Positions 15,359 to 52,113 of a DNA stretch of 64,000 nucleotides are shown one piece after another. Origin of the DNA: Ferrimicrobium acidiphilum DSM 19497. GTDB taxonomy: Bacteria; Actinomycetota; Acidimicrobiia; Acidimicrobiales; Acidimicrobiaceae. Numbering within the stretch: the first letter of the stretch is position 1; each line of letters begins with the position of its first letter. Both the position numbers and the translations under genes were made by a program. Where the stretch lies: NCBI RefSeq assembly GCF_000949255.1, contig NZ_JXUW01000006.1, positions 62,001 to 126,000 on the forward strand. The letters run 5' to 3'. Below the pieces are notes generated by a model. The model searched no databases. It was not told the DNA's origin and saw nothing but the letters and a program-made list of their open reading frames with translations.

Positions 15359-16219
15359 TTACCGTATGAATGGTGCATTGACCACGATGCCTCGTTGTTT
15401 TCGTGCGATGGCAACTTGCTGCGACATGGCTTCTTCAATGCGTCTTTGGCTTGGTGGCTCATCTGCTACAACCAGTGGCAACACTGGAGTGTTTGTGGCC
15501 TTAGCCAAGAAGTAAGCCCTTCGCTTGGCTCGTTCGAGGTCGTGCACTTCAATGGTAACGGAAGCTTCCACGGCTATATAGAGGTGCTCGCCTGTCGGCG
15601 TCTCGCCCTCAAGGATGGCGTCGAGCAGATCGAGCTCCTCCTCTTCGTTCTCTTCTAGTTGAGAGGAGAGCTCGTAACGCTCATCGTAGCTGAGCGAACG
15701 CACTGCACTCAGGTCTTTACGTCGAATATATGACCGGGGATTGGCTAATATGTCGCTTTCGAGGTGCCGTCCATCCATTTTGCCTAGCCGATTCTCAACC
15801 CGCTCAAGCCGATTCTCAACCCGCTCAAGCCGATTCTCAACCCGCTCAAGCCGATTCTCAACCCGCTCAAGCCGATTCTCAACCCGATCCAACCGCTCGG
15901 TAAGGGCAGCGATCTGAGCATCAACTCGATCCAACCGCTCGGTAAGGGCAGCGATCTGAGCATCAACTCGATCCAGCCGCTCGGTAAGGGCAGCGATCTG
16001 AGCATCAACTCGATCCAGCCGCTCGGTAAGGGCAGCGAGCAGGTTAGATGTCCGGTCCAGTTTGTCGCCGATCGAAGCTATCTGCCGAGTGTTTTCGCTT
16101 ACAAGCTCGGGCAACGTCTGTAGACGTTCGCCGAGGATCTCCGCTCTGACGGCGTCTTTCCACTCAGGGTTCTCCCTGAGTGCCTTGAGCAGATCGCTTG
16201 TGGTGTTGATGACCGCCAT
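15359..16219 (-). CDS. Heptad-repeat coiled-coil protein with nuclease-fold-like C-terminal domain
   Basis: A 286-residue protein. An N-terminal helix-rich part (DLLKALRENPEWKDAVRAEIL) leads into a long coiled coil, residues about 45-145. The coil is built of 14-residue units (ALTERLDRVDAQIA) and then 7-residue units (ENRLERV), repeated at the DNA level. The C-terminal 130 residues include LYIAVEASVTIEVHDLERAKRRAYFLAKATNTPVLPLVVADEP, which resembles the core strand-helix-strand of PD-(D/E)XK-type domains found in coiled-coil proteins of cyanobacteria and Chloroflexi (DUF3782-like). The usual lysine of the E-x-K motif reads serine here, so nuclease activity is doubtful. Function unknown. Confidence 0.8.
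   Translation of the reverse strand: MAVINTTSDLLKALRENPEWKDAVRAEILGERLQTLPELVSENTRQIASIGDKLDRTSNLLAALTERLDRVDAQIAALTERLDRVDAQIAALTERLDRVDAQIAALTERLDRVENRLERVENRLERVENRLERVENRLERVENRLGKMDGRHLESDILANPRSYIRRKDLSAVRSLSYDERYELSSQLEENEEEELDLLDAILEGETPTGEHLYIAVEASVTIEVHDLERAKRRAYFLAKATNTPVLPLVVADEPPSQRRIEEAMSQQVAIARKQRGIVVNAPFIR
15788..15892. repeat. Tandem 21-bp repeat encoding coiled-coil heptads
   Basis: Five head-to-tail 21-bp units starting at 15788; the first four are identical and the fifth diverges at its 3' end. Each encodes one ENRLERV heptad on the minus strand. A length multiple of three keeps the frame when copies are gained or lost. Confidence 0.95.
15893..16038. repeat. Tandem 42-bp repeat encoding double heptads
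   Basis: Three complete 42-bp units at 15893, 15935 and 15977 differ at only one or two bases; a partial fourth starts at 16019. Each encodes ALTERLDRVDAQIA. They adjoin the 21-bp array. Confidence 0.95.
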
Positions 16220-43750: not shown

Positions 43751-44091
43751 CTCCCAAGTACACCGGCTTGTTCGTGTTACCCATCCAATATGCAGACTCC
43801 CTGTACCTAAGGTGTCAATAACCATACGACTAGTGCCACCGCTTAGCTCCAGAGTAAATATGTGTCGCCTTTCCTAACTCAAATGCATTGTATAAAGGTG
43901 GAAGTACCCAGGCGCACCGATGGTGATATAGTTATGAATCTCTGTCTCTTGGTTTGATAAGGATTCAGAGCCGACCTAGTCGACAAAATCCCAACCTTAG
44001 GATTCATGGATGATACTTCCGTCAAAGTTGTCATACTGCCATCATCTGGCGTTCCTAAGCTCACTGCATTCGTCGAATTCGGAGGTATAAC
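43751..44091. other. Intergenic region upstream of the repeat protein
   Basis: AT-rich, no gene seen. It presumably carries the promoter of the PepSY-repeat gene, whose ribosome site GGAGG is at 44081-44085. Confidence 0.45.
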
Positions 44092-45546
44092 GTGATCAAG
44101 CGATCTATGGTAATTGGGCTCTTGTCGGCCGGTGTAGTGGCGGTTCCTGGCATGGCTCTCGCAAGTGCTCAGGTGAACTCGACACCGATCATCCCTGTAT
44201 CAACTCAGGCCACTGTATCTACGACGGCCGCGCAGGCGGACCAGGCAGCATTAGCTGCAGTTGGGGGCGGTACGGTAACCAGTACGTCTACTGACACCTA
44301 CCAGGGTGCCTCAGTCTATGACATTCACGTGCTCTTCAACTCAGTTGTCTACGACGTCAAAGTCCTGCAGTCAAATGACAGTGTTGTCCTGAAGAAGGTG
44401 TCAAGCGAGAGCTCAACTCAGGCCACTGTATCTACGACGGCCGCGCAGGCGGACCAGGCAGCATTAGCTGCAGTTGGGGGCGGTACGGTAACCAGTACGT
44501 CTACTGACACCTACCAGGGTGCCTCAGTCTATGACATTCACGTGCTCTTCAACTCAGTTGTCTACGACGTCAAAGTCCTGCAGTCAAATGACAGTGTTGT
44601 CCTGAAGAAGGTGTCAAGCGAGAGCTCAACTCAGGCCACTGTATCTACGACGGCCGCGCAGGCGGACCAGGCAGCATTAGCTGCAGTTGGGGGCGGTACG
44701 GTAACCAGTACGTCTACTGACACCTACCAGGGTGCCTCAGTCTATGACATTCACGTGCTCTTCAACTCAGTTGTCTACGACGTCAAAGTCCTGCAGTCAA
44801 ATGACAGTGTTGTCCTGAAGAAGGTGTCAAGCGAGAGCTCAACTCCTGCTGCCACTACCCAGAGTGCCGCGCAGGCGGACCAGGCAGCATTAGCTGCAGT
44901 TGGGGGCGGTACGGTAACCAGTACGTCTACTGACACCTACCAGGGTGCCTCAGTCTATGACATTCACGTGCTCTTCAACTCAGTTGTCTACGACGTCAAA
45001 GTCCTGCAGTCAAATGACAGTGTTGTCCTGAAGAAGGTGTCAAGCGAGAGCTCAACTCCTGCTGCCACTACCCAGAGTGCCCCAGCTGAAAGCCAACCTC
45101 CAGAAGGTAGTTCCAGTTCTTCGCAGACTACATCTGGTTCCACTACCCAGAGTGCCCCAGCTGAAAGCCAACCTCCAGAAGGTAGTTCCAGTTCTTCGCA
45201 GACTACATCTGGTTCCACTACCCAGAGTGCCCCAGCTGAAAGCCAACCTCCAGAAGGTAGTTCCAGTTCTTCGCAGACTACATCTGGTTCCAGCAACCCT
45301 GTGGTCTCAACAAGTGGCATCACTTACGGAGTGAAACTGACTGCGGTGCCAAGCATATTTCAATCTTTTGTGGCACAGGCGTTGACTCAGAATCATGGGA
45401 CTCTGAAGTGGGTAAAATTTACTGCGAAAACTGGAGGAGAGACTCAAGCAAACATCAAGATTAGTTTGAGCCAAGGAGGAACAGTTAAGGTCATCGACTT
45501 AATTTCTACCACGGGCCAACTTATAAGTCAGACCGTGAATAGCTAG
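44092..45546 (+). CDS. Secreted protein with four PepSY-like repeats and Pro/Gln/Ser linker
   Basis: 484 residues, GTG start after GGAGG. Signal peptide MIKRSMVIGLLSAGVVAVPGMALASA with cleavage near residue 26. Four consecutive 71-residue units follow, each AAQADQAALAAVGGGTVTSTSTDTYQGASVYDIHVLFNSVVYDVKVLQ..., the PepSY pattern (helix A..AAL, glycine turn, two strands). Next come three 25-residue Pro/Gln/Ser-rich units and a last, divergent PepSY-like domain of about 75 residues. PepSY proteins bind or inhibit at the cell surface and often accompany sensor kinases. The two-component genes begin 256 bases downstream on the same strand, so a role as ligand or modulator of that kinase is likely but unproven. 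Confidence 0.85.
   Translation: MIKRSMVIGLLSAGVVAVPGMALASAQVNSTPIIPVSTQATVSTTAAQADQAALAAVGGGTVTSTSTDTYQGASVYDIHVLFNSVVYDVKVLQSNDSVVLKKVSSESSTQATVSTTAAQADQAALAAVGGGTVTSTSTDTYQGASVYDIHVLFNSVVYDVKVLQSNDSVVLKKVSSESSTQATVSTTAAQADQAALAAVGGGTVTSTSTDTYQGASVYDIHVLFNSVVYDVKVLQSNDSVVLKKVSSESSTPAATTQSAAQADQAALAAVGGGTVTSTSTDTYQGASVYDIHVLFNSVVYDVKVLQSNDSVVLKKVSSESSTPAATTQSAPAESQPPEGSSSSSQTTSGSTTQSAPAESQPPEGSSSSSQTTSGSTTQSAPAESQPPEGSSSSSQTTSGSSNPVVSTSGITYGVKLTAVPSIFQSFVAQALTQNHGTLKWVKFTAKTGGETQANIKISLSQGGTVKVIDLISTTGQLISQTVNS
44203..45054. repeat. Four tandem 213-bp coding repeats
   Basis: Units at 44203, 44416, 44629 and 44842. The first three appear identical throughout. The fourth differs only in its first 10 codons and is otherwise the same. 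Each encodes one PepSY-like module. Confidence 0.95.
45067..45291. repeat. Three tandem 75-bp linker repeats
   Basis: Units at 45067, 45142 and 45217 encode TTQSAPAESQPPEGSSSSSQ plus TTSGS. The DNA copies are essentially identical. They form a flexible extracellular linker in the PepSY protein. Confidence 0.95.
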
Positions 45547-45802: not shown

Positions 45803-46474
45803 GTGCGAGTTCTAATCGTGGAAGATCACCCTGAAACGGGGAGATGGCTGCTGCAAGAGCTCTCAAGAACTAGCTGGAAGTGCGACCTCGCTGCCACGGT
45901 GCAGTCTGCCAGATCACTAGCTCGGCAAGAGTCGTATGACGTGGTGCTCCTTGATGTCATGCTCCCAGATGGTAGCGGTGTTGAGTTCTGTCAGGAGCTA
46001 CGCATCCTAGGGAACTTTGCCATCATTATGGTGACTGCACGGGACGACGTTACCGATCGAATTGATGCGCTGGATAGAGGCGCGGACGACTACGTTATTA
46101 AGCCTTTTGCTATCGGAGAACTGATTGCGCGGATCCGGGCTGTATCTAGACGGATGAATGGCGACAGAGGCCCTGTACTTGAGTGTTTTGACCTACGTCT
46201 TTGGGTGGAGGAGAGAAGCGTTGAGCAGGGTGGTCATTTACTTGAATTAAGCCGTCGTGAATTCGATCTTCTCGCTGTATTTATGAGAAATTCGAAAAAG
46301 GTGTTAACTCGCGATCAGTTGCTGGAGTTGGCATGGGGGTATGTATTTTATGCGGAATCCAATGTCGTGGATGTGACTGTTAAACGTCTCCGCGAACGTT
46401 TGGATCCGAACGGTAAAGTCATAATAGATACGGTGAGGGGAGTCGGATACGTCTTAAGGCCAGCCCGTGAGTAA
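45803..46474 (+). CDS. OmpR/PhoB-family response regulator
   Basis: 223 residues, GTG start. Receiver domain with the acidic pair ED at residues 7-8, phospho-acceptor Asp51 in VVLLDVMLPDGSG, and the conserved Lys in DDYVIKPFAIGELIARI. The C-terminal winged-helix DNA-binding domain runs from about residue 125 (LELSRREFDLLAVFMRN, VVDVTVKRLRERLDPNGKVIIDTVRGVGYVLRPA). The kinase gene overlaps its end by 8 nt, so the pair is co-translated. The PepSY-repeat gene upstream is a plausible target. Confidence 0.95.
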   Translation: MRVLIVEDHPETGRWLLQELSRTSWKCDLAATVQSARSLARQESYDVVLLDVMLPDGSGVEFCQELRILGNFAIIMVTARDDVTDRIDALDRGADDYVIKPFAIGELIARIRAVSRRMNGDRGPVLECFDLRLWVEERSVEQGGHLLELSRREFDLLAVFMRNSKKVLTRDQLLELAWGYVFYAESNVVDVTVKRLRERLDPNGKVIIDTVRGVGYVLRPARE

Positions 46475-47858
46475 GAGAGCTCTCATTCATCGGTGGCGTA
46501 TAGCATGGGTGCTTACCATCGGTATTGAGTTAGCTGTAATACTAGCTGCACTTGGTTCCGGTTACTTTGTCTACTCCTTAGTCCGCAGCACTCTAATCAA
46601 GCAGGGAATTAGCGGGGTTGAGGTTTCTGCAAGAGCTGCAGCCGCCAAACTAAGGTCTGAATATAGTTCTCATCCCACCAAGGCACCGGTCGAGGATTTG
46701 GCGTACCTTACAGTCTCTGGTGACCAGTATGTCCTCCTCACTACCAGTCGAGGACACTTAGTAGGTGCGAGTGGAACGAGGCCACCGGCGTCACCTCTTG
46801 GAGGGTGGGCTAGCGTGGGAACATCAGGATGGTTGCAGTTTGGTAGCATTCCGTACCTTTATGCATCTGCTCCGATTCTTGTCGGCAGCTCCAATTTGCG
46901 GCTCATTGTTGCCGAGAGTCAGAGCCATCTTGCTTCACTTCTCTCCACATTACGGATTGCGCTAGTGCTTGGTGGTCTGGTACTGATAATGAGTACGCTA
47001 GCTGCCATCTCGGTCATTGTGCGTCGGGTTGCGGATCCCTTGTTGGAACTTGAGGAGGTCGCGAGAACCGTGACGTTGAACGTGAATGAGGCTGCGTTTG
47101 CCAGTATTGATTCGCGGTTAGCTGAAGTCCATTCGCTTGAGGAATCGTTCAGCAACATGCTAGAGCGATTGGGACGCACCCAGACGCGGGAACGTGAGTT
47201 TATCAGCAATGCGGCGCACTCTCTCAGGACGCCAATCCATGTAATTCAGGGGAATATAGTTTCGCTTGGCCGCCTACTGAGTGAAGACCCGGATTTAGCA
47301 CGCCATGATCTTAAGATCTTAACAAGAGAGGTGCAGGCGATGGCTACCCTTGTAGATCGGCTGCTACAGCTCTCTAGGTCGGAGTCGGGTGTGCTCGCTA
47401 AATTGGAGCGTTTTGATCTGCAACTTTACCTCGACCGGATAGCTGGAACTCTGCGAGACTCCTGCATGCATCACGCCCTTCTATTTAGTACGCATGACTT
47501 GGACGCTCGGCCGTTTGTCATCTCGGATCCGGTGCTATTGGAGGTGGTGTTGAGAGTGTTGATTGAGAACGCCGATGCCTATGCAGAGGAAGATTCTGCG
47601 GTAACTGTTTATGTAGCAACTGCTGAAAATCTCTCTGATATTCGTATCGGAGTCCGTAACTACTGTGATCCAATACCTGTCTCTGTGTTGGACGAGCTCT
47701 TCGAGCGGTTCTATCGAAATGAGCAAGCGGCGTCCAGTGAGCACTATGGTCTTGGGCTCGCAATCGCAGATAGCATCGTGAGACGTATCGGAGCCAAATG
47801 GTTTATTGAAAGTCGTCCCGAGGGCACGATCTTCGCTTTAGATATTCCCAGCGGATAG
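46467..47858 (+). CDS. Sensor histidine kinase
   Basis: 463 residues. Membrane helices at about 12-37 and 163-187 bracket an extracytoplasmic sensor domain of about 125 residues. A HAMP-like linker follows (VRRVADPLLELEEVARTV), then the phospho-acceptor His251 in FISNAAHSLRTPIHVIQGN, then the ATPase part with N-box VLRVLIENADAYAEE and G-box HYGLGLAIADSIVRRIG. The first ATP glycine box seen in most kinases (DxGxG) is weak: the stretch reads IGVRNYCDPIP. Forms a two-component system with the preceding regulator. Confidence 0.93.
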   Translation: MSKRALIHRWRIAWVLTIGIELAVILAALGSGYFVYSLVRSTLIKQGISGVEVSARAAAAKLRSEYSSHPTKAPVEDLAYLTVSGDQYVLLTTSRGHLVGASGTRPPASPLGGWASVGTSGWLQFGSIPYLYASAPILVGSSNLRLIVAESQSHLASLLSTLRIALVLGGLVLIMSTLAAISVIVRRVADPLLELEEVARTVTLNVNEAAFASIDSRLAEVHSLEESFSNMLERLGRTQTREREFISNAAHSLRTPIHVIQGNIVSLGRLLSEDPDLARHDLKILTREVQAMATLVDRLLQLSRSESGVLAKLERFDLQLYLDRIAGTLRDSCMHHALLFSTHDLDARPFVISDPVLLEVVLRVLIENADAYAEEDSAVTVYVATAENLSDIRIGVRNYCDPIPVSVLDELFERFYRNEQAASSEHYGLGLAIADSIVRRIGAKWFIESRPEGTIFALDIPSG

Positions 47859-49129: not shown

Positions 49130-49735
49130 GTGTACATGAACCAAGATTGGAATCACTTTGCTGGCGATTTGCTACGGCACTCCAGAAATCAAGCTGGGTT
49201 GACACAACGCGATCTTGCGGTGCAAGCAGGCGTTAGTGCTTCCGAAGTTGCGCGGATTGAGTCCTATCGGGTCCAGCCCAGCATTCCGGTTCTGGGCAGG
49301 TTGCTCGACGCTATCGGCTTGGGCGTTGTGTTGAGCGGTGAGTACGTCGATAATAGATCTAACGCAAGGGAGACCGCTGACTCCATTGGGCAGGCGCTTG
49401 CAGCAAATGATGAGCATCGGGCTTTCCTGACTTGGCTAGTTCTATTGGATGACTTAAAAGCGGTGACCTCTGTTCGCCTCGTCGAGCTGATACAGGATCC
49501 TCCGAGAACCACCGGCGACTCTCGGTATGATGCGCTCATAGCTGGATTAGTGGAGTACGTCTGTATGGCCAGAGGGATAGTTCCCCCCACTTGGGTAGAT
49601 GATTCGTGGAGAACTACTGAAGGCTGGTGCATATCAGGCATCTCAGATCTAGCAGAAATCGAGCGGAGGGAAAGCCCTCCACCTTTTTCGAAGCGAGGGG
49701 TCTATCTGGTTGAACAGAGTCTGAGCCGTGCCTAA
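49130..49735 (+). CDS. XRE-family HTH protein, putative antitoxin
   Basis: 201 residues (GTG 49130, or ATG 49136). N-terminal HTH: AGDLLRHSRNQAGLTQRDLAVQAGVSASEVARIESYRVQPSIPVLGRLLDAIG. The remaining 130 residues are a helical domain (AFLTWLVLLDDLKAVTSVRLVELIQDPP, YDALIAGLVEYVCMARGI) that may bind the partner. A possible -10 (TATCAT) lies about 20 bases upstream, with very short leader. The 3' end overlaps the nucleotidyltransferase gene by 8 nt, the usual layout of a toxin-antitoxin-type pair. Function by analogy only. Confidence 0.8.
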   Translation: MYMNQDWNHFAGDLLRHSRNQAGLTQRDLAVQAGVSASEVARIESYRVQPSIPVLGRLLDAIGLGVVLSGEYVDNRSNARETADSIGQALAANDEHRAFLTWLVLLDDLKAVTSVRLVELIQDPPRTTGDSRYDALIAGLVEYVCMARGIVPPTWVDDSWRTTEGWCISGISDLAEIERRESPPPFSKRGVYLVEQSLSRA

Positions 49736-50261
49736 CGAACCTCTAACACGAACAGACCTGATTGTTGTCTTGCATGAATTGGCAGATGCTCTTGATGCAG
49801 CGGGGATTGAGGCCCAGCTTTACATCGTCGGCGGAGCTGCGATGGTGTTAGGTTACTCAGCGCGAGACGTAACACGTGATGTGGACGCACAGTATTACCC
49901 CAAAAATGCTATCAATAACGTTGCCGCCGCTATAGCTAGGAGACATCACTTGCCAAATGATTGGCTAAATGACAACGCTGCTATGTTTATTTCACCAGTC
50001 AAGGATGATGAAAAACGTCGATTATTTCTATCCAAAGGAAGTGTGACCATCCAGACTGCCTCAGCGGAGGCATTGCTCGCGATGAAGATTAGGGCGAGTC
50101 GACCGCGTATGGATAATTTCGACATCGCATTCCTGTGTGAACATTTAGAGATCACCTCCATCGTGCAAGCAGTCGATCTCTATGAAACATATTACCCAGA
50201 AGATCGGTTGCCAAAATATGCGCTTACCATTCTGCGGGCTATTCTAAAATTGGACAAATAA
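49728..50261 (+). CDS. Nucleotidyltransferase-fold protein (DUF6036 / AbiEii-like), putative toxin
   Basis: 177 residues, GTG start. The nucleotidyltransferase hallmark is visible: YIVGGAAMVLGYSARDVTRDVDAQYYP, that is GG-x-A followed by D-x-D with the arginine-rich connection seen in this group. The tail LLAMKIRASRPRMDNFDIAFLCEHLEI carries the K..A.R.RD-like helix. Proteins of this fold act as toxins that add nucleotides to tRNA or other targets (MenT/AbiEii family). The overlap with an HTH gene supports a two-gene module. GC content is lower than in the housekeeping genes, consistent with acquisition. Confidence 0.78.
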   Translation: MPNEPLTRTDLIVVLHELADALDAAGIEAQLYIVGGAAMVLGYSARDVTRDVDAQYYPKNAINNVAAAIARRHHLPNDWLNDNAAMFISPVKDDEKRRLFLSKGSVTIQTASAEALLAMKIRASRPRMDNFDIAFLCEHLEITSIVQAVDLYETYYPEDRLPKYALTILRAILKLDK

Positions 50262-50828
50262 GCAGAGTATCTCCCCTTCCAAGATGAGACACACCCATGT
50301 TTATCAGGCTGACAACCCGGGAGACGATAGGTTATCCTCAGCTTCCATAAGTGCGTTCGCCTCTACGGACCTCGACGTTCGAGTCCGCGCAACTCTTTCA
50401 AAAATGAGGCATCTCTGACGCAACCGTCTCGCGTGCGAGCTGGCAAACTGCGTTTTCGTTAGCTCTGGCTCGATCGGCTCTGCTGTGACGTCAGCGCATT
50501 CAGCACTGTCAATCATGTCGTGTGTCACTCGTCCTCCTAGGGAAACGATTACGGGATCTGCTCCGCTATCGAAGTGTTGTTGTGGGACGGATCCTACCTG
50601 CGGAGTGTAGCCACCATTTTGTCGATAGTTCCCGAGGCGTCCGTGTTGACTGCACATCCCAACCAGTCTAGATAAACGCTGGTCAGAATGATGTCCGGAC
50701 AAGATGGATGAAAAGCCCTTAGACGACCCTCGCGGGTGCATGTATATACGCATGCACAGGTCAAACCGATCGCCGCACCGTGACCATTACGCCCGGATGG
50801 CTGGGTTGTGCGCGAACAGCAGCTAGTG
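50262..50828. other. Accessory intergenic DNA next to the ISL3 insertion
   Basis: A 149-codon minus-strand frame (50304-50753) exists, but it has no ribosome site and no family I know. Nothing else is supported. Probably relic DNA. Confidence 0.4.
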
Positions 50829-50836
50829 GTATAGTC
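50829..50836. repeat. Left target-site duplication of the ISL3 element
   Basis: GTATAGTC directly abuts the left inverted repeat and is identical to 52273-52280. Eight bases is the usual ISL3 target duplication. Confidence 0.9.
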
Positions 50837-52113
50837 GGCTCTATTGACATCCATGTGGATAAACTCGCCCTTTCATAAGGTAACTTCAAGTCAATCGGTC
50901 CACAAGCTAGCATCACCAGGGCCAGGGTAGCCTTGGCGGAGTGAAACCCATACGAGCGGGCAATGATTGAGCGAACTTTGGTGTTGAGTCCCTCGACCCT
51001 TCCATTGGATACCCCAAGTCTGATGGAGGCAAGTATCCCGTCTCGATGAGTTCGGATGGTCTTTGAGAGTCGGATGAAACTCGATAGTCGTGAGCGTGAG
51101 GCTCGCTTGCACCAGTGATCGAGCATCTCATTCACCTCGTCGATCTCGAGGTCGCCAGCGAAGATCGCCCGTAGGGATTCCTTCATCTCATAAGCCCGCC
51201 ATAGGGCTCCCCCTCGTTGTTTGATGGCTAAGAGGGCTAGTCCTTGACGCTTGGTTAGGGTTCCTGGATTCTTCAACAGTGCCCACCTTGCCCCGGCGAA
51301 CTTACGGGCAAAGGTAGGAGATGGGAGCTTTCTCATCTCCCGCCAAAGGTCTTTGCGTACCTCCTCTAGGGCCTCGGTTCCCAACTTAACCACATGAAAT
51401 GGATCGAGACAGATCTCGGCGTTAGGTGCCTTCTCGCGGAAGGCCTTGGCAAAGGCTGGACCGAGATCCATGGTGGCTGCCTTGATCTTGGCAATCCGTT
51501 CTTCACCCAGGTCATCGAAGAATTCATCTAGACTCATTCGCACTTTTCCCCTCTGCCCCATAGACGATCTTGCCCGTCTCGTGATTGGTGACAAGCGTTA
51601 GGTAGTTGTGGTGTTTGCGATAACTGATCTCGTCAACTCCAAGAATGAAGAGGTTGTCAAGACGGTTGGGATCGAGCTCTTGGCGTGACGACTCGTTCAC
51701 AGATCGTTCCTACCGTGCGCCAGGCGACTCTGAGCAGTTTTGTCACCGTGGTCTTATCCATCTTGGCACATGCCCAAGCTACCAAGTGCTCGAAGTCCCT
51801 CGTAAACCGAGACTCCCCAACTGGTCGGGCAAATGGTACTGCCTTAAGTGATTACCCCGTGAGTTGGACACCGGAGTCGTCTTAGTTGGCACGAGAGCCA
51901 CGTCTGGTGAGTCCCGATGTCGAGGTGTCTCCAACGGGAGTCGAGCGTTCTCGTGTCATAACAGGACCGGGTCGTATAGGAGCATTTCGGGCATACCAAC
52001 CGCGATCGGGTAAGCCTGAGCTTTACCAGCAGTTCGTGTGGACGAACTAAAACCTCGACGACGGTGACACTGCGAAGCCCCAGCATCTGCTTAACTAGAG
52101 AGGTAGCGCGCAC
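50837..52113 (-). pseudogene. ISL3 transposase, frameshifted
   Basis: Begins at GTG 52113 with an N-terminal zinc finger (LVCPKCSYTTRSC, LRCPTHGV) and stops at 51844. The expected continuation appears in other frames: AVPFARPVGESRFTRDFEHLVAWAC, then NLFILGVDEISYRKHHNYLTLVTNH (first catalytic Asp). From about 51550 comes the long DDE segment MDLGPAFAKAFREKAPNAEICLDPFHVVK, ending LPYER near 50866. Four pieces in three frames mean at least three indels. The last frame has no stop inside the element and reads through the left repeat to 50761. Confidence 0.85.

Follow-up and report, generated by a model that had tools for sequence, protein, structure and literature searches.

PepSY proteins encoded beside sensor kinases are reported to be widespread, with PepSY genes lying near two-component systems more than 60-fold above chance according to a study on Vibrio cholerae (PMC12714742), and the single worked-out mechanism that we found in the literature covered is a Gram-negative one. 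In that mechanism, DbfQ is an exported PepSY protein whose gene stands just upstream of those of its regulator and kinase, which binds the sensory domain of the kinase 1:1 with a Kd of 30 nM and which its authors deduce to push the kinase toward phosphatase activity (PMC12714742). Two further systems come close in their gene content. In Pseudomonas aeruginosa, the PepSY proteins PA2658 and PA2659 are encoded together with the kinase of BqsRS (PMC12714742), BqsS being reported as an Fe2+ sensor (PMC12666569); in Microbacterium, the tandem PepSY protein UipA is encoded beside the two-component system UipRS (PMC8963506).

Here, we analyzed a window of 64,000 nucleotides from Ferrimicrobium acidiphilum DSM 19497, in which a gene for an array of PepSY units lies directly upstream of a response regulator gene, itself followed by a histidine kinase gene (table 1). 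We give a probability of about 0.6 to the reading that this locus is a DbfQRS-like module, in which the regulator would activate the gene of a secreted PepSY protein acting as the ligand or sensor protein of its own kinase. The likeness lies in an exported-looking PepSY protein encoded directly upstream of regulator and kinase, and in a self-feedback that is described for the DbfQRS operon and predicted here. DbfQ is, however, a protein of 135 aa with one PepSY domain that works in a Gram-negative periplasm (PMC12714742), whereas the window protein has four units (its relatives usually two) and, in addition, a long linker and a further domain at the C-terminus; because of its 484 aa and its four units, we file it as working like DbfQ rather than as a DbfQ orthologue. 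Differences from the other systems are that UipA is a single-pass transmembrane protein and the window protein has no anchor by hydropathy, that the UipA two-component genes stand upstream of uipA whereas those of the window stand downstream of the array gene (PMC8963506), and that the PepSY proteins of BqsRS are two distinct ones rather than an array (PMC12714742). Our literature searches on PepSY with tandem repeats, Acidimicrob- or Sulfobacillus listed nothing on such arrays.

Table 1. Features of the array locus, in coordinates of the window.
Feature	Position	Strand	Details
Predicted response-regulator box	44028..44047	+	TTGTCATACTGCCATCATCT; direct repeat TCAT-N7-TCAT, 11-bp register
Predicted -10 hexamer	44056..44061	+	TAAGCT; 8 bp past the box
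Ribosome-binding site	44081-44086		GGAGGT; precedes the GTG start
Array gene	44092..45546	+	ORF, GTG start, 484 aa; Pfam PF03413; homologues
Array protein, layout			4 PepSY units, then linker, then C-terminal domain; exported-looking
Signal-peptide-like N-terminus	44092..44175	+	residues 1-28; hydropathy
PepSY unit 1	44200..44412	+	213 bp; exact match to units 2 and 3
PepSY unit 2	44413..44625	+	exact self-match
PepSY unit 3	44626..44838	+	exact self-match
PepSY unit 4	44839..45051	+	differs in 20-bp head; exact self-match elsewhere
Linker	45065..45292	+	three exact 75-bp repeats (100%), 25 aa each, Ser/Thr/Pro-rich
Conserved C-terminal domain	45319..45543	+	75 aa; 21 homologues aligned, 15 invariant columns; helix and four strands in 1 of 5 models
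Response regulator, OmpR/PhoB type	45803..46474	+	Pfam Response_reg and Trans_reg_C
Histidine kinase	46467..47858	+	Pfam HisKA and HATPase_c; start overlaps the regulator end

The DNA of the array matches itself at a shift of 213 bp over 433 bp (44200-44632), which makes units 1 to 3 identical, and again over 216 bp (44653-44868), which confines the deviation of unit 4 to its head; these 20 bp (44846-44865) are the same as the 20 bp past the unit where the linker begins (45059-45078), and all four units have a 193-bp core in common. With a TRF score of 1635, the array is not a product of chance, and the protein it encodes matches the Pfam PepSY profile in four stretches (57.9 bits, against a cut-off of 24). 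The initial annotation had described near-identical PepSY-like modules, a fourth one deviating at its start, and three identical linker units, all of which agrees with these matches; its further claim of a recent duplication is borne out by the complete lack of synonymous differences among the units, when 0.84-0.86 of synonymous sites separate them from the units of the nearest relative. The heptamer TCAACTC opens every unit and stands once more after the last (44200, 44413, 44626, 44839 and 45052), besides occurring once within each unit, and this placement is compatible with, though no proof of, replication slippage, which between the heptamers at the unit ends would duplicate exactly 213 bp. 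From a methodological standpoint, the Pfam PepSY profile found no match in the own genome at 0.001, probably because single units score too low, and a unit profile built from our alignment did detect PepSY units where the Pfam profile failed.

A single unit, modeled with AlphaFold2 from a 4-row alignment (the alignments for all structure models holding rows from the window and a Sulfobacillus relative, L006, only), gave one helix followed by four strands at a pLDDT of 90.5, and this model superposes on 4exr with a Z of 11.4 (rmsd 1.4 over 63). The structure prediction that had been proposed as a check thus returned the PepSY fold, and together with the Pfam score it lets us assign the unit to the PepSY domain with confidence. 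Further fold matches were YpmB (Z 9.8), YpeB (8.4), UipA (7.1; rmsd 4.5 over 63 residues of the crystal structure, 27% identity) and Rv0603 (5.5), values under 8 possibly having little meaning; the CD1622 lipoprotein (4exr), YpmB (2gu3) and YpeB (5boi) share the PepSY fold with the unit as a match of one domain only. Six polar residues, S, D, D, H, D and K (model positions 30, 32, 41, 43, 52 and 54), are invariant in 31 of the 31 units aligned, out of 44 with exact or near copies excluded, and from the strand limits and the alternation along the strands they should lie on the face of the sheet opposite the helix. The histidine is not kept in the other PepSY proteins that we found (L009, L011-L014). 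As an aside on the latter, two of four further actinobacterial PepSY matches adjoin a kinase (L013, L014).

The protein closes with a domain of no clear family, as far as profiles and models go. In the window protein it is rich in lysine (6 K against 1 D and 1 E); across the 21 homologues it has no Pfam PepSY match, its other Pfam matches are weak (the best being TonB_2 at E 0.017, in 6 of 21), and hhalign finds no connection to the PepSY units (probability 0.5%). One of five models, at pLDDT 76.6, shows the helix-strand order of PepSY, the other four reaching 42-45, and since fold searches with this model gave middling values only (best Z 6.9), we claim no fold for it. The domain that had been annotated at this end as a divergent PepSY-like one is real and conserved in 21 proteins; its likeness to PepSY comes from one model of medium confidence, with no Pfam or profile link. 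A PDB profile search also pointed to the beta-propellers Ika8, Ika4 and Tako8, which we take to be designed proteins; we rejected this relation as an effect of composition, as no stretch passed alone.

By hydropathy, the sole hydrophobic segment of the array protein spans residues 5-28, with no membrane anchor beyond this signal-like start, so the protein looks exported and free of an anchor, and would act outside the cell membrane; the “surface protein” of the initial annotation is a weak reading. The kinase has two hydrophobic segments with about 115 residues in between. RExxE, the Fe2+ motif of BqsS, is absent from this kinase, which weighs against our best explanation. The TetR-type regulator found by Pfam upstream of the array gene shows no sign of belonging to the module. 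To the right of the kinase (49130-51594), Pfam finds a helix-turn-helix gene with an AbiEii/DUF6036-type nucleotidyltransferase gene behind it, as well as an ISL3-family transposase ORF, a possibly mobile neighborhood.

From an evolutionary perspective, the family that we analyzed comprises 21 proteins of different species, namely 18 from fetched loci, that of the window, that of a relative from another genus (G022) and that of a Sulfobacillus sp. MAG (L006), which all show one layout, from a signal-like start through PepSY units and linker to the conserved 75-aa domain. When 42 genomes of the window's family were searched at the protein level, three had matches: the own genome, G022, whose 328-aa protein has two identical units and the same C-terminal domain and is followed by a regulator and a kinase, and G006, which encodes three PepSY units without the C-terminal domain, on a contig of 4.4 kb that holds no two-component system. 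The C-terminal domain is found in 2 of these 42 genomes, and an orthologue of the kinase (E <= 1e-60) in the own genome (G000) and G022 only, exactly the carriers of an array with this domain. A scan of the species collection added the Sulfobacillus MAG as one further homologue, and in the order of this MAG the profile of the C-terminal domain hit 19 proteins in 18 of 42 genomes; among genomes sampled from the window's order it hit 1 of 397, and among those from the class 1 of 395, each time the own genome, in samples that are not exhaustive, G022 being reported in neither. No match came from plasmid records, and two pattern matches on viral contigs revealed no relative. With its triple PepSY gene, G006 adds another kind of PepSY array to this family of iron acidophiles; the gene is located near ferric-reductase-like and FMN-binding genes according to Pfam (L009, 641-1540 (-) and 2484-4349 (+)).

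The association with a two-component system extends across the family: a regulator lies downstream on the same strand in 18 of the 21 loci (window, G022 and 16 of 19 from the Sulfobacillus order), and a kinase is seen in 16 (window, G022 and 14 of 19), the contigs of L047 and L060 stopping after the regulator so that a kinase is not visible there. Three loci (L045, L046 and L052) show neither gene in the fetched DNA, which counts against reading the locus as a module. In 15 of the 16 regulator-linked loci of the Sulfobacillus order, array and regulator are separated by an extra PepSY-like protein, according to profile matches of which some are weak; it is missing from L049, the window and G022, and the one in L006 (6608-7192) carries a hydrophobic segment close to its start. 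Of the 21 loci, 16 entered a regulator-kinase tree together with an outgroup. There the window and G022 share a branch (100/100) that falls among the rows of the Sulfobacillus order, within a set of ten supported at 99/99; the root is weak, as it depends on a single distant outgroup whose branch is very long. The tree makes a transfer of the module from Sulfobacillus relatives into the window's family likely. Overall, this appears to be a little-known signaling module that the window has in common mainly with Sulfobacillus relatives, and whose sensor-regulator pair seems to switch on the gene of its own secreted partner. What goes beyond the context given by the initial annotation is the downstream two-component system, the common promoter box, the family in Sulfobacillus relatives and the fact that the closing domain is conserved.

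Two units per protein are the rule (18 of 21), with one in L059, three in L060 and four in the window. The Sulfobacillus order has 17 two-unit proteins, within each of which the units share 40-62% aa identity, when those of the window are 100% identical, from which we conclude that the window array has been rewritten and enlarged; the standard protein would thus be one of two diverged units, homogenized in the window's lineage and brought to four, probably by slippage at the heptamer. The units of G022 are also 100% identical in amino acids, with a synonymous difference of 0.07. In a tree of units, built on 61 columns and with many open forks, the window units group together (100/97) and with those of G022 (98/94), when the first and second units of the others mostly fall apart. 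Since units are alike within and synonymously divergent between these two lineages, and given this grouping, each lineage appears to have homogenized or re-duplicated its units alone. A third case is L060, whose units 2 and 3 agree at 97% in protein and 94% in DNA. The family documents the homogenization of identical domains against a mostly constant two-unit background.

Upstream of the array gene, a 20-bp block is common to the window, G022 and L006, at 64-68 bp from the start (that of L006 being picked by its ribosome-binding site), with 15 of 20 columns identical across the three loci, when 150 shuffles reached at most 11. Within the family, TCAT-N7-TCAT occurs in 16 of 21 loci, and the box TTGTCATNNNGCNNTCATCT is matched with at most 2 mismatches in 14, with 3 in three loci, with 4 in L048 and with 5 in L049, L052 and L058. 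A TANNNT hexamer follows exactly 8 bp past the box in 19 of 21 loci (16 of 18 with three near-copies excluded), and at any other of 40 offsets at most once, related loci not being independent evidence. The poor box matches of L048, L049, L052 and L058, as well as the missing TANNNT of L044 and L058, weigh against the best explanation. A box followed by a -10 element in this arrangement is typical of promoters under activation by PhoB-type regulators. The response regulator would bind the TTGTCAT-N7-TCAT box and, because the box occupies the place of the -35 element, would be an activator of the array gene.

The box has a single site in the own genome at up to 3 mismatches, before the array gene. 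A composite promoter pattern, searched in 20 genomes with up to 2 mismatches, gave 35 sites against 3 for a reversed control, and of the 18 sites at 0-1 mismatch, 17 precede array genes, the remaining one (L067) an epimerase-like gene as judged by eye; as the pattern was derived from array loci, its match to them is expected, and it is its scarcity elsewhere that is informative. It reaches 19 of the 21 array genes, one of them twice (L088 being the second box), and 15 other sites, of which we opened 7 in addition to L088. One of these (L081, in G1058) stands before a separate regulator operon, in a genome whose array gene, on another contig, has no adjoining regulator; this regulator is clear in Pfam, and the first gene of the operon scores 19.1 bits for PepSY, below the cut-off of 24. 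Another (L083) precedes a small exported-looking protein at 20.7 bits, likewise below the cut-off of 24. The sites of L067, L082, L085 and L089 have no PepSY gene. The small exported-looking product of L087, taken for a PepSY protein by eye, was dropped as such, having no Pfam PepSY match. On the basis of these patterns, the predicted box may belong to an autoregulated array promoter, on which the regulator would act as an activator.

With regard to what the array protein does once exported, the same observations could be read as those of an output, that is, of an exported metal or proton buffer or of a wall protein whose production is set by the two-component system and which does not bind the kinase. 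That the array looks like the main target of the regulator, being preceded by the only box of its genome and by 17 of the 18 close pattern matches (in a pattern built from such loci), goes well with this idea, as do the invariant acidic residues and histidine, the four sites that four units would provide, and the example of UipA, a tandem PepSY protein that binds uranyl and adjoins a two-component system of unproven role (PMC8963506). We nevertheless consider it unlikely, if a possibility to be reckoned with, given the more than 60-fold enrichment of PepSY genes near kinases and regulators and the binding of one such protein, DbfQ, to its kinase (PMC12714742). An inhibition of some extracellular peptidase by the units, after the manner of peptidase propeptides, would be in line with the name of the Pfam family, “Peptidase propeptide and YPEB domain,” and with fold matches that include the vibriolysin propeptide and cystatins; as Pfam finds no peptidase domain in the array protein or in the three neighboring proteins scanned, and as the conserved neighbors are a regulator and a kinase, we hold this to be very improbable.

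A distinct question is whether the four copies mean anything at all, since they might be an artefact of assembly or the product of neutral slippage in a gene that normally has two units, as 18 of its 21 homologues do. The genome of the window comprises 68 contigs and 3,088,654 bases, with a GC content of 55.5% in the window, and the published draft of F. acidiphilum T23 has 68 contigs, 3.08 Mb and 55.3% GC, obtained from 454 and Illumina reads (PMC4417700). From the published read number and coverage, we computed a mean 454 read of about 715 bp, close to the length of the exact repeat, and about 1-2 such reads are expected to span three identical units. The check for collapse advised by the initial annotation is thus answered in part: spanning reads are to be expected, but too few to prove four, and the count of four in the assembly is plausible, short of proof. 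On the other side, the head of unit 4 and the linker are distinct anchors, the reading frame is intact across the array, the units of G022 have been homogenized independently and the third unit of L060 is recent (97% aa), so that meaningless or artefactual copies seem improbable to us. A second strain of F. acidiphilum has been published (PMC11636282), and a copy number that differs between strains, as had been suggested, is plausible.

Returning to the DbfQRS-like reading, the locus would form a three-gene signaling module made of a PepSY protein and a two-component system, in which the units would offer a conserved polar face whose most likely partner is a metal ion, protons or the extracytoplasmic part of the kinase, and in which the array protein, like DbfQ in Vibrio, would feed back on the kinase. 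Four units would multiply the ligand sites per molecule. What the sequence itself displays are the repeat, the domain family, the gene order, the distribution of the family, the promoter pattern and the invariant residues; export, binding and activation by the regulator, a common face for the residues, kinase contact, the ligand, slippage and any effect of copy number are deductions from these. Iron or protons are our guess for the ligand, natural candidates in a habitat of acid and iron (PMC4417700). A bolder version would have a regulon that essentially consists of exported PepSY proteins, and an array whose number of ligand-binding sites depends on DNA slippage. Copy number would then adjust the set point at which extreme acidophiles run a feedback loop on metal or protons outside the cytoplasm, and the sites would stay identical through concerted evolution. 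This version strikes us as rather doubtful, its odds being lowered by L087, without a Pfam PepSY match, and by L083 and L081, below the cut-off. More generally, the family makes up a compact system, with a conserved promoter, constant polar residues to alter and natural variants of one, two, three and four units, and owing to these variants an effect of site number on signaling is directly testable.

Elsewhere in the window, another gene (15359-16219 (-)) carries two near-exact tandem arrays at 15786-16038, one of 4.8 copies of 21 bp and one of 3.8 copies of 42 bp, and shows weak matches to many coiled-coil families.
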